In this document: positions 37,898-48,550 of the stretch, one piece after another
Numbering within the stretch: position 1 is the first letter of the stretch
Layout of the letters: the number at the start of each line of letters is the position of its first letter
Virus record (IMG/VR): IMGVR_UViG_3300042449_000993
Coordinates: 1-64,000 of that record
Source: a virus
DNA length: 64,000 nt
Direction: 5' to 3' (one strand)
Notes under the pieces: generated by a model
Database searches by the model: none
Told to the model about the DNA's origin: nothing
The model's input: the letters and a program-made list of their open reading frames with translations, nothing else
Position numbers and translations under genes: made by a program

Positions 37898-37922
37898 GGG
37901 GGACTTCGGTCCCCCTTTTTTT
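37898..37922 (+). terminator. Rho-independent terminator with TTCG tetraloop
   Basis: GGGGGAC/GTCCCCC stem, TTCG loop and seven T. It ends gp32 transcription where the minus-strand tail operon converges; there is no T-run on the minus side. Confidence 0.9.
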
Positions 37923-39660
37923 ATCCCATATTCATATTAGCATATGTTGCTGGATGATCGAACTCTTGAGCCAATAAACGATTGAATGTGTTCTCTTGAT
38001 TATGCACTTCAATATTCTTTTTAGTAGAAGGCACAGGAATGACTTGCGTATTGTTGATTTGATTTACTGTCTGAGAAGGAATCTCAACTCTATCAGCCGA
38101 TTGAATTTCAATTCTCTTTTGATTCATGTCAACAATTTGCTGACCTTCTGCTGGCTTTGGTGGAGAAAGATTTAAATCCGTTTTTGAGATTGGTTTCAGT
38201 CCAGCAATCTCTTTTGCTTTATCAAGTTTTATCTTAAGAGAAGGATCATCAACAGCCATTCTCTCTAATTCTTGAAGAGTATATGCACCATACTTTGGAA
38301 CTTGAATTGCTGTTGCGATGTCTTGAACAGACCCCTTTGATATATTCTGAATGGCTTTATTTCCAGATTCTTTTAAACTAAAATCAAGAGAGTCAAATAT
38401 ACCCATAGTTGGAATTGTTGCTAATCCTAATAAACCTGCAGCACCCAATAATCTTCCACGAAGCGGTAAAGGAATTTTTTGAAAAACATCTTTTATCTTT
38501 TCTGGGATTTTCTTTTTTCCACCATCTGGTGTAGGTGGTGTTGGTACTGGAGGAGTTGGAGTTGGGACTCTGTTGTTTCTTCCTGGAAGAAAAGTTGGGA
38601 AATCAAATCCATTATTTGACAATAAATCAGGATTATCTCTAAACACTCTCTTCAAAGCATCATATAAAGTTGCATCAAGTGCTTTTTCCATGGCTCTTTG
38701 GAGAATGGCTTGCTGCTCATCAGCCTCTAAATCGAAGACGCTGTTTGGTTGTTTTTTAATGAGCGATTCTTTTAAATCCTTGACGAGCAATTCCATATCT
38801 TTTTTACGAAACATACTTTCTTCTTCAAGTAAAACTTTAATTTGTTCTACAATTGAATCAACTTCTGGATCTCCTCCAGTGAAGCGAACTGGCTTTAAGT
38901 TAGTCTCGCGAGATAGACGTTTGATTTCTGCGTCTAATTTTCTTTGAATCTTTTTACTTGCAATTTTACCAGCAGTGCCTGTCTTACTTTTCTCATATAA
39001 TTGTCTGCCTGTAGGAGCATCTGGATAATAGAGATATTCCTTCCCTTCTTCATCAGCAACAGACAAAGGCTTCATTTGTTCTGGAATCTTTTCAAGGGAT
39101 CCTCTACCTTTTGCTAGTGCTGTCAATGCATCATTTATTGTTCCGACTAAATTATCAGCAATAGATTTAACACGACGATTTGTTGATGAGACTTCTTGAC
39201 TTACCTTATCAACAGCAACTGATAAACCCATGATTGAGGATTTAATTGGCTCAAGTGCATCATTAAGTTCTTTCTTTAATCTTTGCGGTGAGAGAGTCTT
39301 TTTCTCTTTTTGTTTCTTTACACCAAACTCCTCTTCAAGAGTTTTCTTTGCTTGTTCGATTTCTTCTTTTGTATATCTTGTTTGAAATCTTTCTCTAACA
39401 ATTGCAGTTAGATCTTTATTCCCAAAAACTGCTGCGGCAACAAAACGTAGAGTTTGAGATGTTGCAGTATCTTTTTTACCTGAAGCAATTTCACGGAGTT
39501 TCTTTTCTCTGCGAAATTCTTCTCGAGATCCAGTGTATTCACTAAATGACTTCTGTGCCTCTGGACTGTAGATGTCTGATTCTACAGTCTTGACCTTCTT
39601 TTTAAGTTGATCAACTGTTTCTTTTAGTTCTTCAATTTCTGGATCTGTTTTCTTTGCCAT
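37921..39660 (-). CDS. Probable tail tape-measure / hub protein (T4 gp29 analogue)
   Basis: 579 residues. Long charged coiled-coil N-terminal two thirds, a Pro/Thr linker (RVPTPTPPVPTPPTPDGG), and a hydrophobic stretch LLGAAGLLGLATIPTMGIFD near residue 410. The end, NQENTFNRLLAQEFDHPATY, resembles C-termini of tail-length proteins. It directly follows gp51-like and gp26-like genes, the T4 order for hub genes. Sequence similarity is not decisive, so the role rests on context and architecture. Confidence 0.6.
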   Translation of the reverse strand: MAKKTDPEIEELKETVDQLKKKVKTVESDIYSPEAQKSFSEYTGSREEFRREKKLREIASGKKDTATSQTLRFVAAAVFGNKDLTAIVRERFQTRYTKEEIEQAKKTLEEEFGVKKQKEKKTLSPQRLKKELNDALEPIKSSIMGLSVAVDKVSQEVSSTNRRVKSIADNLVGTINDALTALAKGRGSLEKIPEQMKPLSVADEEGKEYLYYPDAPTGRQLYEKSKTGTAGKIASKKIQRKLDAEIKRLSRETNLKPVRFTGGDPEVDSIVEQIKVLLEEESMFRKKDMELLVKDLKESLIKKQPNSVFDLEADEQQAILQRAMEKALDATLYDALKRVFRDNPDLLSNNGFDFPTFLPGRNNRVPTPTPPVPTPPTPDGGKKKIPEKIKDVFQKIPLPLRGRLLGAAGLLGLATIPTMGIFDSLDFSLKESGNKAIQNISKGSVQDIATAIQVPKYGAYTLQELERMAVDDPSLKIKLDKAKEIAGLKPISKTDLNLSPPKPAEGQQIVDMNQKRIEIQSADRVEIPSQTVNQINNTQVIPVPSTKKNIEVHNQENTFNRLLAQEFDHPATYANMNMG

Positions 39661-42528: not shown

Positions 42529-43725
42529 ATGGCAGGACCACTCACTCGAAGCAGTACAGGACCAGCAAAAAAAGAACGAGAGTTAGTTTTAGCTGAGCGA
42601 CCAAAACAATTCGATGGTCCATTAAAGGCATTGGAAACGTTTGAAGAAGGCGCAGAAGTTCTGACATATCCTCAAGATTTAGGTAACAACAATCAATTTA
42701 AGTATGTGATGAGATTGTTGATTTTTCGTCAAATACGAGATGTGAATGCTGTACCAATTATAACTCCGAATACACTAGATTTTTCTAGAAAAGCATCCCA
42801 AGAAGGGAGGCTTAGAACAGATATTGTAAATCCTACAACAGTCACTGCAGTACTTGCAGGAGCTGCAGGTGCAGTAGTTGGAAGAGTTGTTGAAGAATTT
42901 GCCTCAAAAGGTTCTCGAGCTTCTGGTGCTTTAAACGCTGTGGGGGATGCTGCTGTCTCTGCAGCGCAACTTACAGGTGCATTTGCGGTCGCAAATGCAT
43001 TTGATTCTGGATTTTCTGGAAGTCAAAACGTAGTTACTGATCCACTCTCATATATTAATCTTTATATGCCAGATGGTCTCAATTTCGTTGATCGTCATGA
43101 TTACGATGCTGTTTCTGTCACAGATGCTCTTGGTAATTTGGGAGTTTTAGGGACAGGTTCTGTTACAGAAATTGGAGCTCGTTTGGGTGAGAATGCTCGA
43201 ATTGCTGGTGTGCAATTGTTGGGGCAAAACATTACTGACTTGGCTCTTTATAACTCTGGATATGCATTAAATCCTCAACTTCAAGTATTGTTTAAGGGAA
43301 GTAAGAATAGAGAGTTTGTCTTTACCTTCAAATTTGTTCCAAGAAATGCGAATGAAGCGGAAACAATTGAAGGCATAATTCGCACGCTTCGCTATCATGC
43401 CGCTCCAAATTATCAAAGATCAGGTGAAGATGGATTGGCAGGAACTTTTTTTGGTGTTGGCGTAGGTGCAACAGACAATTCAAGATACTTTATTCCACCA
43501 TCTCAATTTGAGATTGAATTTTTAGTAATGACGAATGGCGCAGCGATACCGAATACAAAAATGCCAAGAATCGCTCAGTGCGTGCTTACAAATATTGACG
43601 TCAATTATGCTCCAAGCGGTCAATTTTCTGCGTATGAAGATTTTCAGCCAGTTGAAACCCAAGTCCAATTGACGTTTACTGAAACAATCATCCTCACCAA
43701 AGAAGATATTCAGGCTGGATACTAA
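42529..43725 (+). CDS. gp48-like baseplate tail-tube cap
   Basis: 398 residues. The C-terminal half, LYNSGYALNPQLQVLFKGSK, REFVFTFKFVPRNANEAETI, RTLRYHAAPNY and CVLTNIDVNYAPSGQFSAYE, matches T4 gp48. An inserted Ala/Gly-rich hydrophobic stretch (AVLAGAAGAVVGRVVEEF) lies around residues 108-150. gp48 sits on the hub and starts the tube with gp54. One-base overlap with the gp53 gene. Confidence 0.88.
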   Translation: MAGPLTRSSTGPAKKERELVLAERPKQFDGPLKALETFEEGAEVLTYPQDLGNNNQFKYVMRLLIFRQIRDVNAVPIITPNTLDFSRKASQEGRLRTDIVNPTTVTAVLAGAAGAVVGRVVEEFASKGSRASGALNAVGDAAVSAAQLTGAFAVANAFDSGFSGSQNVVTDPLSYINLYMPDGLNFVDRHDYDAVSVTDALGNLGVLGTGSVTEIGARLGENARIAGVQLLGQNITDLALYNSGYALNPQLQVLFKGSKNREFVFTFKFVPRNANEAETIEGIIRTLRYHAAPNYQRSGEDGLAGTFFGVGVGATDNSRYFIPPSQFEIEFLVMTNGAAIPNTKMPRIAQCVLTNIDVNYAPSGQFSAYEDFQPVETQVQLTFTETIILTKEDIQAGY

Positions 43726-44609
43726 TGTCATATTTTTCCAATTTTCCCAAAATGTTATATTCAACATCTTTGGGTGTTGCAAATCCGAAAGCAGTCACAA
43801 ATATAATTGCAAAGGTTAATTTTCTTTCTGAGAGTATTAACAATACGAGCATCTTTTACAATTATTCTGTAAAAGACGGAGAGCGACCAGAAGATATTGC
43901 ATATAAAATGTATAAAGATCCAAAAAAGCATTGGATCATTTTACTGTCGAATAATATTTTAGATCCTCAATATGATTGGGTCTTAAGCACAAATCAATTA
44001 GAAGATTATATTAATAAAAAATATAGTTCAATAACATTTAATCTGGATCCATCTGAATCATATACCTCAAGTTACACGGTCGGCGAAACAGTATATCAGG
44101 GAAGTTCTTTAGATAAGGCAGATTGCGTTGGAACAGTTGTTGCTTATAGCAGCGGAAATAAAACACTACAAATTAAATTTGCAGACCAAGTTTTCGCAAA
44201 TAACGCAAATGTAACTGGCGCAACTTCAAATGTGACTCATAAAGTTGTAGGAATGACTTATAATAATGATGGATATAATTGGGCTTCAAATACAACTTAT
44301 TATTCTTTATTGACAGAAGTTGCATCAAATAATTACGATGGTAAAAAGACAACAACCAAATATCAAGTAACTGCAAAAGATTATAATTGGGAAACTGATT
44401 CTGTAATTGATAAAAATGTGAACATATCGTATTCAAATACCTATAATCTAGTTGATGGATCAACTTTAACAGTCGACACTACTATTGCTCCTGTAACTTA
44501 TTATGATTATGAATTAAATCTAAATGAAGAAAAACGAAGCATCATTATTATTAAACCAACATTTGTTCCATCAATAGAGAACGAGTTGCGCAGATTGATG
44601 AGATCATAA
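43725..44609 (+). CDS. gp53-like baseplate wedge protein
   Basis: 294 residues, longer than T4 gp53 (196). YSVKDGERPEDIAYKMYKDP and KKHWIILLSNNILDPQYDWV form the LysM-like gp53 core near residues 45-80. An extra beta-rich Ser/Thr/Asn-rich insert follows (about 110-260), and the end, LNEEKRSIIIIKPTFVPSIE, is typical. It links wedges to the hub. Confidence 0.85.
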   Translation: MSYFSNFPKMLYSTSLGVANPKAVTNIIAKVNFLSESINNTSIFYNYSVKDGERPEDIAYKMYKDPKKHWIILLSNNILDPQYDWVLSTNQLEDYINKKYSSITFNLDPSESYTSSYTVGETVYQGSSLDKADCVGTVVAYSSGNKTLQIKFADQVFANNANVTGATSNVTHKVVGMTYNNDGYNWASNTTYYSLLTEVASNNYDGKKTTTKYQVTAKDYNWETDSVIDKNVNISYSNTYNLVDGSTLTVDTTIAPVTYYDYELNLNEEKRSIIIIKPTFVPSIENELRRLMRS

Positions 44610-44610
44610 T

Positions 44611-45903
44611 ATGGCGACTAATATTGAAACAACAATATTTGATATTACTTCGATATCAATCGTAAGTCCATCAATTGGAACTGTTGATCTAAAAGACTTT
44701 AAGTTTACTGTAGAGGATTTTAGTATCTACGAAAGCATTTATAACAGCGTTGTTTCTGGACACTTACTAATTAAAGATGCATCTAATCAATTGTCTAAAT
44801 TGTGTTTATCAGGCACTGAGTTTCTTTATATCAATTTTATGAAAGCAGAAGGTTTGGCGCCATACGAAAAGGTGTTTCGAATCTATAAAATTTCTGATGT
44901 AACTCTAAAGAATAATACAACAACATTGACCTATAGAATTGACTTTTGCTCAGAAGAGTTTTTACTTGATCATCAAATTAGAATTTCAAAGTCATACAAA
45001 GGGTTTTATAATTTTCAAATTGCTGCAGATATTTTAGTTAATTATCTTGGAGTTTCTCCAGAAAGAGTGACTTTAGAACCAACTGTTCTTCCTCATGATG
45101 AGTTTATTATTCCAAATTTAAAACCATTTGAAGCATTGAATATGCTCACAGCATTTTCACTCAACAACAATTTAACCTCAGCGTTTGTATTTTTCGAGAC
45201 CGTTTCTGGTTATAAATTTGTAAGTTTGGAGTCTTTGATACAGGCTGATGATGCTCGAACCATTTATCTTCGTCCCCAAAATGTAAGTAATGAAACTGAT
45301 TCTTTAGCAGGAATAGACTACATCAGCGATTTTAATATTTCTCAGTTATTCAATGTGTTGCAAACAATGTCAACTGGTGGTTATGCATCATCAATGTTAA
45401 AAATGGATCTAATCAAGCAAGATGTGCAAACAGCATTCTCAGATCCAGCATCTTCAACACCTGTCACAACGTTGAATGCATTTTTACCAATGAATGACGC
45501 GAAAAATAGATTTAATGATAGAATAATTGATGCTTCAGCATATCAAAGATTCTTCACTAACGTAAAAGGTGGATTAATTGACAAGATTATGTTGCAAAGA
45601 GCGCATCAATTTTCTCTTTTAAATAACTATACAATGCAAGTTACAATGGCTGGCGATACAAGTTACGAAGCAGGTCAAGTGATCAGCGTTGACTTTCCAT
45701 ATCTGCAACCAATTAATGAAGCAGAAGAAACTCAAGTAGATCCATACAAGGCAGGTCGCTATCTTCTTACTGCCGTTCGCCATCGAATTCTTAACAATAA
45801 ATACATCTGCTATCTTGAATTATGCAAAGATTCAGTTCTACAGCCATTCCCTTCTGCTGTTGCTGATGATTCTCAACTCTTAACATCTGCTAGATTATCA
45901 TGA
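44611..45903 (+). CDS. gp27-like baseplate hub protein
   Basis: 430 residues. FTVEDFSIYESIYNSVVSGH, LLIKDASNQLSKLCLSGTEF, and later HDEFIIPNLKPFEALNMLTA and AGDTSYEAGQVISVDFPYLQ match the hub tube-like domains of gp27. Forms the trimeric torus that carries the gp5 spike. The stop overlaps the gp5 ATG (ATGA). Confidence 0.85.
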   Translation: MATNIETTIFDITSISIVSPSIGTVDLKDFKFTVEDFSIYESIYNSVVSGHLLIKDASNQLSKLCLSGTEFLYINFMKAEGLAPYEKVFRIYKISDVTLKNNTTTLTYRIDFCSEEFLLDHQIRISKSYKGFYNFQIAADILVNYLGVSPERVTLEPTVLPHDEFIIPNLKPFEALNMLTAFSLNNNLTSAFVFFETVSGYKFVSLESLIQADDARTIYLRPQNVSNETDSLAGIDYISDFNISQLFNVLQTMSTGGYASSMLKMDLIKQDVQTAFSDPASSTPVTTLNAFLPMNDAKNRFNDRIIDASAYQRFFTNVKGGLIDKIMLQRAHQFSLLNNYTMQVTMAGDTSYEAGQVISVDFPYLQPINEAEETQVDPYKAGRYLLTAVRHRILNNKYICYLELCKDSVLQPFPSAVADDSQLLTSARLS

Positions 45904-48125
45904 GTAAATTTCGAAAAGACTTTATCGGATTAGATGGATTTCAGTGGTGGTTCGGTGTGGTTGAAAACCGAAACGATCCATTATTGCTTGGAAGATGTCA
46001 AGTTCGCATTTATGGAATACATTCTCCAAATTTAACTGATATTCCATCAGCAGACCTTCCTTGGGCTTTGCCAGTCCATTCACTAAACAATCAAACCTTC
46101 TCAACACCAAAAGAAGGTGATTATGTTTTTGGATTCTTTATTGATGGATCATATGCGCAACAACCAGTAATGATGGGTATTGTTCCTGGAATTCCTGAGT
46201 CAATGACTGATCCAAATTCTGGATTTGCTGATCTTAGAACCCCAGAAGAAATTGCAAATTCACCAAAAAGAACAAGATCAGTTGAGTATGCTACAGATGG
46301 TACTGGCGCAACTCTTGAAGAATATACTGATGAAGAAGAATTGTCGGCATTAAGAAATCCATCTGCATTTCAAATTGGTTTTCCAACAAATAGCCCACTC
46401 GCAAGAAACGAGCAGGTAGACGAAACAATTCTTTCTGCCAAGAAAGCATCAGTTGTCACTGTTCCAATTTCAGAAGAAAACCAATGGAAAGAACCAGATC
46501 CTGCATATGATGCAGAGTATCCATTCAATAAAGTTTGGGAAACAGAATCTGGTCACATTATGGAGTTTGATGATACTCCAGGATCAGAGCGTGTTCATAT
46601 TGCACACAGATCTGGAACATTCCAAGAAATTTATCCTTCTGGAACTAAAGTCGAAAAGATTGTAAAAAACAATTATAAAATTGTTTTCTCTGATCATCAT
46701 GTTTACATTAAGGGGCGTGTAAATCTTACCGTTGAATCAAATGTAAACATGAAGGTCTATGGACATGTTAATCTTGAAGCCCACAATGACATCAATGCTA
46801 ATGTTGCTGGAAGTGTGAACTATACTGTCGGCGGTGACTTTAATGTGAAGGCTGAGAATATTAATCTTGAAGCCAACAGTTATATCAATCAACTTGCAAA
46901 TACTGGCGTGTTTATTACTGGCAATGGAGATGACGACGACGGCGGTGTGTTCATAGTTGGAGAAGGTTCAGTTGGACTTCAGGGTGGAGAAGTTTCAGTT
47001 CTTTCTACAGTTGGAACTACGATAACTGCAGGTATTGACATTTCATTGACTGCTGGTGGATTTATCGCTGCTCAAGCTGGCGGTGCAGTTAGCATTCAAG
47101 CAGGGGCGCAATTTAATGTTCTTGCTGCTGGTACTGCGGCAATGACAGCAGCCACAGTCGGATTGAATGGAGCGGTTATCTCTCTCACCTCTGCTGGTCT
47201 TGTGAATTTGCAGGGTACAGTTGTTGGTGTTGGTGCAAGTCTCGTTGCTCCATTACAAACGTTCACAACATTCCCACCATCTCCTATAATTGGTGTTCCA
47301 ATCCCAGGAATTCCAGCTGGGGAAGTAATTCCTGCCTCACCAACAGGATTAGGCGATCCACTTGAATTGCTCGAATATAACGATCCTCCTGTGTTCTTTG
47401 AGAAGAGCCCAAGCGTTCGACTTCCTCCAGATCGAGCTGCAGATATTGAACAACAGATTCTAGAATACGTTAAGAATCCAAACTCCTTCTATAATGAAGA
47501 CGCAGATCGTGGTGATGTGAAGTCGAATTATCAAGGAACACCAGATACAAGCGGATTTGGTGATTCGTTAATTAATCCAAATAATCCAAACATCGATGAT
47601 GCTTCAGATTTGGCTGCTTGGCTAGAAGAACAATTATCAAAGACCAGTTCAGGCGGCTTCTGGTTAGAAACTGGAATGAGTGGAGGAGATTCAAATCCAA
47701 ACATTATAAACATCTGGAAAGATCTAGGATTTGGAAACAGAGCTCCATGGAACACCGACCAAACCGCATGGTGTATGGGCTTCATCAACTATGGTCTCAA
47801 ACAAAATGGATACCGTTTCGTCCAAACTGCAAGAGCGTTTGACATTCGAGATCGTTTGTCAGATTTCGGCGCAACTCAGGTCATAAATCCAAGCGAGGCA
47901 AGACCTGGAGATATCGCTCTTTGGAAATATAGTCACGTCAGCTTTGTCTATAAAAACAATAATGGTGCCCTTTCGTTTGTGGGTGGAAATCAAAAGAGTC
48001 GCAGCAGCGTTGGTGGCTCTAAGAATAATCCTTCGCAGGGTGATGTAAGTATCTCTTGGCAAAATGGTTATTCGTCTCCAGGAGATGGAACTTTGCTCGG
48101 AATCTTTAGACCTGTAAAAGTCTAA
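45900..48125 (+). CDS. gp5-like hub spike with C-terminal CHAP/NlpC-like domain
   Basis: 741 residues. N-terminal OB-fold (GRCQVRIYGIHSPNLTDIPS, DYVFGFFIDGSYAQQPVMMG), a linker, then a beta-helix of short repeats (VNLTVESNVNMKVYGHVNLE, ~275-450). The T4 lysozyme domain between them is absent. A C-terminal domain (about 580-741) has DQTAWCMGFINYGL with Cys625 and IALWKYSHVSFVY with His679, the layout of CHAP/TIGR02594 amidase-peptidases. It probably cuts peptidoglycan during entry. Confidence 0.85.
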   Translation: MSKFRKDFIGLDGFQWWFGVVENRNDPLLLGRCQVRIYGIHSPNLTDIPSADLPWALPVHSLNNQTFSTPKEGDYVFGFFIDGSYAQQPVMMGIVPGIPESMTDPNSGFADLRTPEEIANSPKRTRSVEYATDGTGATLEEYTDEEELSALRNPSAFQIGFPTNSPLARNEQVDETILSAKKASVVTVPISEENQWKEPDPAYDAEYPFNKVWETESGHIMEFDDTPGSERVHIAHRSGTFQEIYPSGTKVEKIVKNNYKIVFSDHHVYIKGRVNLTVESNVNMKVYGHVNLEAHNDINANVAGSVNYTVGGDFNVKAENINLEANSYINQLANTGVFITGNGDDDDGGVFIVGEGSVGLQGGEVSVLSTVGTTITAGIDISLTAGGFIAAQAGGAVSIQAGAQFNVLAAGTAAMTAATVGLNGAVISLTSAGLVNLQGTVVGVGASLVAPLQTFTTFPPSPIIGVPIPGIPAGEVIPASPTGLGDPLELLEYNDPPVFFEKSPSVRLPPDRAADIEQQILEYVKNPNSFYNEDADRGDVKSNYQGTPDTSGFGDSLINPNNPNIDDASDLAAWLEEQLSKTSSGGFWLETGMSGGDSNPNIINIWKDLGFGNRAPWNTDQTAWCMGFINYGLKQNGYRFVQTARAFDIRDRLSDFGATQVINPSEARPGDIALWKYSHVSFVYKNNNGALSFVGGNQKSRSSVGGSKNNPSQGDVSISWQNGYSSPGDGTLLGIFRPVKV

Positions 48126-48157: not shown

Positions 48158-48550
48158 ATGGCAGCAGAAGAAAGAGCATTTTCTGATCTAGATTTAAATT
48201 TTACGAAACATCCGATTACAAAAGATGTTGCTCGTAAAACTGGGTATAATGCGATTATCGCTTCTTTAAAGAATTTAATTAATACTAATTTCTACGAAAG
48301 ACCATTTAATCCAAAATTGGGAAGCAATATTCGCGGTTTACTGTTCGAACCATTAGATCCGTTAACAGGAACTGTTCTACAAAAAGAATTGAAAATTCTT
48401 ATTGATAACTATGAACCAAGAGTTTCTGTGAGAGATATACAAGTAGTGGCTGATTATGATAGAAATGCATATCAAGTTACTTTAACATTTTTTACGGTTA
48501 ATTCTACTGAACCACTCAGAACAGTATTATTTTTAAATAGGTTGAGATAA
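48158..48550 (+). CDS. gp25-like baseplate wedge protein
   Basis: 130 residues, T4 size (132). AFSDLDLNFTKHPITKDVAR and YERPFNPKLGSNIRGLLFEP are the GPW/gp25 signature; the conserved EPR triad is IDNYEPRVSVRDI. Sheath initiator and wedge component. One-base overlap with gp6. Confidence 0.93.
   Translation: MAAEERAFSDLDLNFTKHPITKDVARKTGYNAIIASLKNLINTNFYERPFNPKLGSNIRGLLFEPLDPLTGTVLQKELKILIDNYEPRVSVRDIQVVADYDRNAYQVTLTFFTVNSTEPLRTVLFLNRLR

Follow-up and report, generated by a model that had tools for sequence, protein, structure and literature searches.

A predicted NlpC/P60-CHAP-type hydrolase at the C-terminal end of a T4-like phage spike protein

Introduction

Where does a contractile phage carry its entry enzyme when its central spike protein lacks the lysozyme of T4 gp5? 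In the textbook account of entry, lysozyme domains lie behind a tip sharpened by a PAAR protein. The question is raised by a gp5-like gene in a 64,000-nucleotide stretch of viral DNA (positions 1 to 64,000 of IMG/VR record IMGVR_UViG_3300042449_000993), the whole of which is here termed the window, and in which a sequence-only reading had seen an entry enzyme 'relocated and replaced'. Our analyses indicate that the spike probably carries a Cys-His-Asn hydrolase of the NlpC/P60-CHAP type at the end of its helix, attached via an adaptor of ~55 residues, without a middle enzyme, and for use in entry. As far as the open-licence literature shows, the Cys/His tip on gp5, its PAAR-fused form and a related clade of pseudoenzymes are new; gp5 proteins without lysozyme, a TIGR02594/CHAP enzyme in the middle of gp5 and a C-terminal lysozyme on a gp5-like protein are already known. 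In the open-licence literature of PubMed Central (PMC) we recognised no earlier description of gp5 with a C-terminal Cys/His enzyme, nor of a PAAR-peptidase fusion in a phage.

Results

The spike protein of the window is a gp5 homologue. Its OB domain scores 28.8 bits against Gp5_OB (cut-off, 25), PHROG 430 ('hub subunit and tail lysozyme') matches with an E value of 1.4e-81, and T4 gp5 (1k28) is matched by phmmer at residues 13-112 (the OB domain; independent E value (i-E) 4e-9), 178-278 (i-E 1.7e-18) and 243-321. Matches along the helix are weaker in Pfam, with PF22178 below its cut-off (17 versus 30.9) and DUF2345 reaching only E 0.62 on the repeats. The hub/wedge neighbourhood is of the T4 type, with tail cap, gp53, PHROG 350, gp5 and gp25 in order. 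The claim that no lysozyme lies between the OB-fold and the helix held up: because only ~65 linker residues separate the two, a GH24 lysozyme is excluded there, and searches of the protein against Pfam, PHROG, NCBIfam and PDB sequences gave no lysozyme match, T4 lysozyme itself being unmatched. A hidden lysozyme, and with it a tail lysozyme of the T4 kind, is ruled out for this protein; a search for GH24 (PF00959) across the 173-kb record of the window was likewise empty.

Past the spike helix lies the Cys/His domain that the sequence-only reading had placed there. TIGR02594 matches residues 594-701 (E 2.8e-9, 37.4 bits), NLPC_P60 matches weakly (E 0.014, below cut-off), and no other copy of TIGR02594 was found in the 173-kb record. 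The description 'CHAP/TIGR02594-like' stands as a statement of relationship and fails as one of strict family membership, the family cut-offs being missed: hhalign, a profile-profile comparison, scores the window domain at 99.2% (E 7.4e-20) against nine phage TIGR02594-type domains, with the Cys, the His and the GGNQ motif in register, and one of these nine, that of phiMAM1, scores 134.7 bits against TIGR02594. Structure prediction, proposed as a check that the lack of a catalytic dyad would decide against the idea, returned an NlpC/P60-CHAP fold with both Cys and His in place. The model of residues 565-741, built from a 37-sequence alignment (A2), has a predicted local distance difference test (pLDDT) score of 86 and a predicted template modelling (pTM) score of 0.85. 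Its helix H60-71 begins at the Cys (model residue 61, C625), its strand E115-123 begins at the His (model residue 115, H679), and N697 (model residue 133) stands at the end of the strand after the His strand. This order of Cys, His and third residue is that of papain-like NlpC/P60 and CHAP enzymes. VIA-align of the model gives Z scores of 11.2 to 9 with NlpC/P60 and CHAP hydrolases, including MepS, PlyGRCS and the LysK CHAP domain, versus only 3.5 with papain; in a Foldseek search of viral models the best named match is gp5 of Serratia phage 3M (E 1.9e-5). Profiles and model together place the domain as a divergent NlpC/P60-CHAP relative, outside TIGR02594 by strict threshold, with C625, H679 and N697 as a putative triad in canonical order.

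The putative triad is well kept. Removal of contained duplicates reduced 103 open reading frames (ORFs) with the domain to 59, among which Cys and Asn are retained in 49 and His in all 59; the window clade is complete. The window clade is under purifying selection, with non-synonymous divergence (dN) of 0.12-0.26 versus synonymous divergence (dS) of 0.8 to saturated. An identical gp5 protein occurs in six IMG/VR contigs, and six further contigs encode gp5 at 69-84% over its full length with the triad residues retained, which rules out chance or artefact as its origin. Megablast with 24 kb of the window as query found no match among 50,697 phages.

That an amidase or peptidase sits at or near the spike tip, as the sequence-only reading proposed, is a good inference, and it is strengthened because PAAR cap proteins of relatives bear the same cassette (see below). 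The papain-like fold also includes proteases and toxins, which appear among the lower Z rows, and T4 gp5 is itself cleaved during assembly; a cysteine hydrolase directed at another target, such as a host envelope or surface protein or peptide, or gp5 itself in self-processing, is nonetheless very unlikely. Fold comparison and profiles alike point first to peptidoglycan hydrolases and phage lysins, and some TIGR02594-type relatives stand alone and match endolysin-like PHROGs.

Scanning 2.9 million viral contigs for the domain turned up 216 relatives, of which the best 80 were examined, whereas 117 pattern matches in 84,980 bacterial and archaeal genomes (species) included no relative. In tblastn searches of the 50,697 phage records, 8 matched the tip of the window protein, 272 that of L091 and 134 that of L103. 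Once domains shorter than 140 residues and identical ones had been dropped, 57 distinct tip domains could be sorted by motifs into gp5 without a middle domain (9), gp5 with a GH19-like (20) or GH24-like (13) middle, PAAR fusions (9) and gp5 truncated by the start of the contig (6). The GH19-like class is a weak assignment: among long gp5 proteins Pfam lists GH19 in four of eight, always below cut-off (best 24.8 versus 25.5), and elsewhere the class rests on short motifs. Among the PAAR fusions, PF05488 is over cut-off in eight of nine (24.9 versus 27 in L113) and CHAP in all nine; both are also over cut-off in L091. Tip relatives score 26.2-36.5 bits against Pfam CHAP, with L071 just under the cut-off at 25.0. 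Close relatives of the window gp5 bear a middle domain as well as a tip domain; middle and tip are separate slots, filled independently.

Some 135 residues, partly Pro-rich, lie between the estimated end of the helix (residue 455) and the domain (residue 590), and Ackermannviridae bear a homologous domain in the middle slot; the domain might thus be enzymatic but folded back along the shaft by its long linker, acting round the spike as T4 lysozyme does. We consider this unlikely, given that an adaptor of ~55 residues (roughly Y-x(3)-P ... VK ... P ... G-x-SLI) stands ahead of the enzyme in all 22 aligned sequences, which cover every architecture, including PAAR fusions anchored at the tip. Because the adaptor is common to gp5-fused and PAAR-fused proteins, and PAAR marks the tip, adaptor and enzyme form a cassette tied to the tip; its presence at the gp5 C terminus looks new. 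In the tree, the PAAR fusions form a single branch among the gp5-fused tips (Shimodaira-Hasegawa-like approximate likelihood ratio test (SH-aLRT), 99). The 353-kb record G025, which has a PAAR fusion, encodes in addition a separate spike-like protein without a C-terminal enzyme in its sequence. At L091:4512-5504, PAAR, adaptor and an NlpC/P60-CHAP-like enzyme lie near ribonucleotide-reductase-like genes and outside the hub operon; further PAAR-fused cassettes are those of L084, L087, L093, L094, L105, L113, L114, L121 and L124.

We inspected twelve cultured phages that encode a relative of the domain (RYC, phiMAM1, aagejoakim, ICP1, Atu_ph04, RL38J1, RHph_N34, phiM9, SH-Ab 15599, phiW-14, RcapNL and, by annotation only, Gekk3-15), and in none of them does it stand at the gp5 C terminus or after the helix. 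It lies behind the OB domain in Ackermannviridae, Pootjesviridae, phiW-14 and SH-Ab 15599, and is a stand-alone or lysis-cassette protein in RYC, ICP1, RcapNL and Gekk3-15. PHROG 1259, which matches the C-terminal end of the window protein, was considered as a prior case of a tip enzyme and rejected; its profile describes an OB domain followed by an enzyme, or a stand-alone enzyme, as phiMAM1, ICP1, RYC and RL38J1 show. Two short stand-alone proteins with neither OB domain nor helix, L158:3213-3929 of ICP1 and L039:5761-6492 of RYC, are annotated as gp5 hub/tail lysozyme, a label probably propagated by hits to the enzyme domain.

Core and tip have different nearest relatives. Outside its own clade, the helix core of the window protein is closest (59-63%) to L016-L018 and L031, whose C termini are M15-like (weak Pfam matches; PHROG 894 endolysin, E 1e-12, for L016; by eye for L031). 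The tip, again outside its own clade, is closest to proteins that share 51-57% in the tip and only 35-40% in the core, and the clade with a GH24-like middle shows the reverse pattern (core 56-60%, tip 43-46%). Tip exchange would be the simplest reading of this disagreement, against which it counts that the tips of the GH24-like clade could have changed faster after loss of catalysis.

That clade, a sister clade of the window proteins, has lost the catalytic Cys. In gp5 proteins with a GH24-like middle and a tip, it is absent from all 17 unique ORFs, which include near-copies (Ala in 12, Ser in 4, Thr in 1; an 18th ORF ends before the tip); the Asn is lost too and the His is retained. The tree requires one Cys loss, and independent losses were not found, a single change being sufficient; the link between Cys loss and a GH24-like middle consequently rests on one event. 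Pairwise dN/dS (omega) is ~0.05-0.19 where computable, with synonymous sites near saturation in many pairs, values that point to a Cys-less tip domain kept under purifying selection. The middle domain of these proteins is modelled with a GH24 fold (pLDDT 85.5, Z 15.8), and a search of PDB sequences with it gave no relevant match. None of the residues E, D and T of the T4 lysozyme triad is conserved in alignments A3 or A5 of the middle domain, which are gapped near the Glu; an active lysozyme there was considered, and inactivity is probable given the absence of these residues in gapped alignments. These phages may thus carry two inactive domains on their spike. Members of the clade are L019, L023, L033, L133, L138 and L142 and relatives.

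Retention of a conserved domain with Ala, Ser or Thr for Cys would suit a domain that serves mainly to cap the spike structurally or as a head that binds peptidoglycan, with little or no catalysis. A further point for such a role is that no PAAR gene was found. Neither PF05488 nor phrog_281 was found in the 173-kb record of the window (G000), in seven window-clade records, in records with an M15 tip (G008-G010) or in those of the GH24-like clade (G011-G015), all of which may be fragments; the same search found PAAR in the positive controls, KVP40 and T4-like RB6. Applied to the window protein, however, the cap or head explanation is quite unlikely: the window protein and all members of its clade have an intact triad, the clade without Cys lost the Asn as well, and without catalysis it is hard to see why precisely these residues should be conserved.

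Gene spacing was also compared. In all loci of the window clade and of the GH24-like type in which both genes were seen, gp25 follows gp5 after 3-33 nt. Many loci of the GH19-like type, several of them with PAAR, have a gap of ~270-840 nt; the gap is 1.2 kb in the M15-tip locus L026. The records of L064 and L071, which may be fragments, have a tip enzyme, and no PAAR was found in them. The tip domain, we infer, can serve in place of the PAAR cap.

Discussion

If the hydrolase assignment is right, the window protein would be the central spike gp5 of a T4-like contractile phage, a trimer by homology. Tail contraction would drive the spike across the outer membrane with up to three copies of the enzyme in front; the exposed tip hydrolase would meet the wall first and cleave the peptidoglycan at peptide (or amide) bonds, after which the tube could pass. 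Lysis can be served by a separate GH19 and M15 endolysin. In the record of the window, outside the window itself, L129:150-1956 comprises a short lipoprotein-like ORF, an ORF for a 115-residue membrane protein and, behind these small ORFs, a separate protein of 405 residues with GH19 and M15 domains, together a likely lysis cassette.

Several observations weigh against this reading. The window domain misses the curated TIGR02594 cut-off of 70.55 (37.4 bits, or 41 bits in the search of the genome record) and stays below the 26-bit gathering score of Pfam CHAP (PF05257), and Foldseek matches to the PDB are weak (best E 0.023, MepS). Residues 456-590 could allow the domain to lie back against the shaft, further virion hydrolases are possible given that the genome record may be a fragment, and the tip is retained after Cys loss in a related clade, where its role may be partly non-catalytic.

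Comparison with known systems helps to delimit what is different here. The window protein shares with T4 gp5 the OB domain, the start of the helix (ETESGH/DDTPG) and the synteny of the hub operon, but T4 gp5 has a GH24 lysozyme in its middle and a PAAR cap, gp5.4, whereas neither was found for the window protein, in which the helix is followed by a Cys/His domain. KVP40-type gp5 likewise has no lysozyme between OB domain and helix (the KVP40 record notes that it 'lacks lysozyme domain') and is ~36% identical over these two regions; unlike the window protein, it has no C-terminal enzyme, and a PAAR gene lies two genes downstream. Ackermannviridae gp5 proteins (phiMAM1, aagejoakim, CBA120) carry a hydrolase of the same superfamily with the same triad, though in the middle slot (residues 149-281 in phiMAM1) and not at the C terminus; the part of the CBA120 report available to us describes TIGR02594/CHAP in the middle of gp5 (PMC3184105). 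The large gp5-like protein of RaK2 and CBB does have a C-terminal enzyme, placed after the helix in RaK2, but that enzyme is a lysozyme and not a Cys/His hydrolase, according to the sections consulted of the reports on RaK2 (PMC3622015) and CBB (PMC5259590).

The hub proteins of Pootjesviridae (phiM9, RL38J1) and phiW-14 combine an OB domain with a TIGR02594-type enzyme as the window protein does, except that the enzyme comes straight after the OB domain and forms the end of the protein. The next ORF in phiW-14 and SH-Ab 15599 encodes a protein with a GH19-like domain and the helix, and the phiW-14 arrangement is a split two-enzyme gp5. In Delftia phage phiW-14 the first of these ORFs, L165:3862-4848, is unannotated, and the GH19-like and spike-helix protein directly after it is labelled 'endolysin'. 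A division into two genes is also seen at L041:5986-9029 of Methylophilales phage Melnitz-3, where gene 1 encodes an OB protein with a C-terminal part that is M15-like by eye, and gene 2 a helix protein with a weak C-terminal M15/VanY match. In the cultured Sinorhizobium phage phiN3, a C-terminal extension of gp5 (L048:3492-5105) matches endolysin PHROG 90 (E 5e-13), and a separate M15 peptidase gene follows directly. The middle slot of gp5 in Ochrobactrum phage vB_OspM_OC (L049:3477-5903) holds two enzymes, Peptidase_M15_3 and Phage_lysozyme2, both over the Pfam cut-off.

This variety bears on the wording 'relocated and replaced'. A move from an ancestral middle lysozyme does not follow from the data, and 'relocated' is too strong because cultured T4-like phages have a middle enzyme, a C-terminal enzyme or none.

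In the evolved VgrG and evolved PAAR proteins of type VI secretion systems (T6SS), an effector domain is fused to the end of the spike or to the PAAR cap. The phage cassette resembles these in position and differs in being an entry enzyme within the virion, and we make no claim that it belongs to T6SS effector systems. By analogy, we read the phage architecture as a T6SS-like 'loaded tip'. It is possible, and we suggest it only tentatively, that T4-like phages have a swappable tip warhead that moves between the gp5 end and the PAAR cap and that replaces the cap in the window lineage; such replacement would account for the conserved pseudoenzyme of the sister clade. A large uncultivated group appears to place a different enzyme chemistry in front, with the same cassette on a cap protein elsewhere, and phage and T6SS spikes would, if this is true, have a common loading logic. 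The pseudoenzyme clade makes it testable whether the tip domain is required for cutting or for capping.

Gene neighbourhood

Coordinates of the spike gene, its parts and the adjoining tail genes are collected in Table 1.

Table 1. Features of the spike gene and its operon (positions in the window)
Feature	Position	Strand	Basis
gp5-like central spike protein, 741 aa	45900..48125	+	ATG start; Gp5_OB, PHROG 430 and T4 gp5 match
OB domain at the gp5 N terminus (match, residues 47-111; entire N-terminal part, 1-112)	46038..46232	+	Pfam Gp5_OB, T4 gp5 match
Linker replacing T4 lysozyme, residues 113-177	46236..46430	+	T4 gp5 matches stop at 112 and restart at 178
Start of the T4 gp5C-like helix, with ESGH...DDTPG motif, residues 178-330	46431..46889	+	T4 gp5 match, PHROG 430; PF22178 below cut-off
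Further VgrG/gp5-like repeats, residues ~331-455	46890..47264	+	PHROG 430 match to 432; end at 455 is an estimate
Pro-rich linker, residues 456-502	47265..47405	+	read off the sequence
Conserved adaptor, residues 503-558	47406..47573	+	22-sequence alignment; common to gp5-fused and PAAR-fused relatives
C-terminal NlpC/P60-CHAP-like domain, residues 565-741	47592..48122	+	profile matches, predicted model
Putative catalytic Cys625	47772..47774	+	alignments, model
Putative catalytic His679	47934..47936	+	alignments, model
Putative third triad residue Asn697, GGNQ motif	47988..47990	+	alignments, model
Tail tube cap, gp48/54-like, same operon	42529..43725	+	PHROG 230, Pfam T4_tail_cap
gp53-like baseplate wedge protein	43725..44609	+	Pfam Phage_gp53, PHROG 232
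Tail protein directly upstream of gp5	44611..45903	+	PHROG 350
gp25-like wedge protein, next gene after gp5 without an intervening PAAR gene	48158..48550	+	Pfam GPW_gp25

PADLOC gave no hit. An ORF of 579 residues without a convincing family match (window positions 37921-39660, minus strand) adjoins the tail genes.

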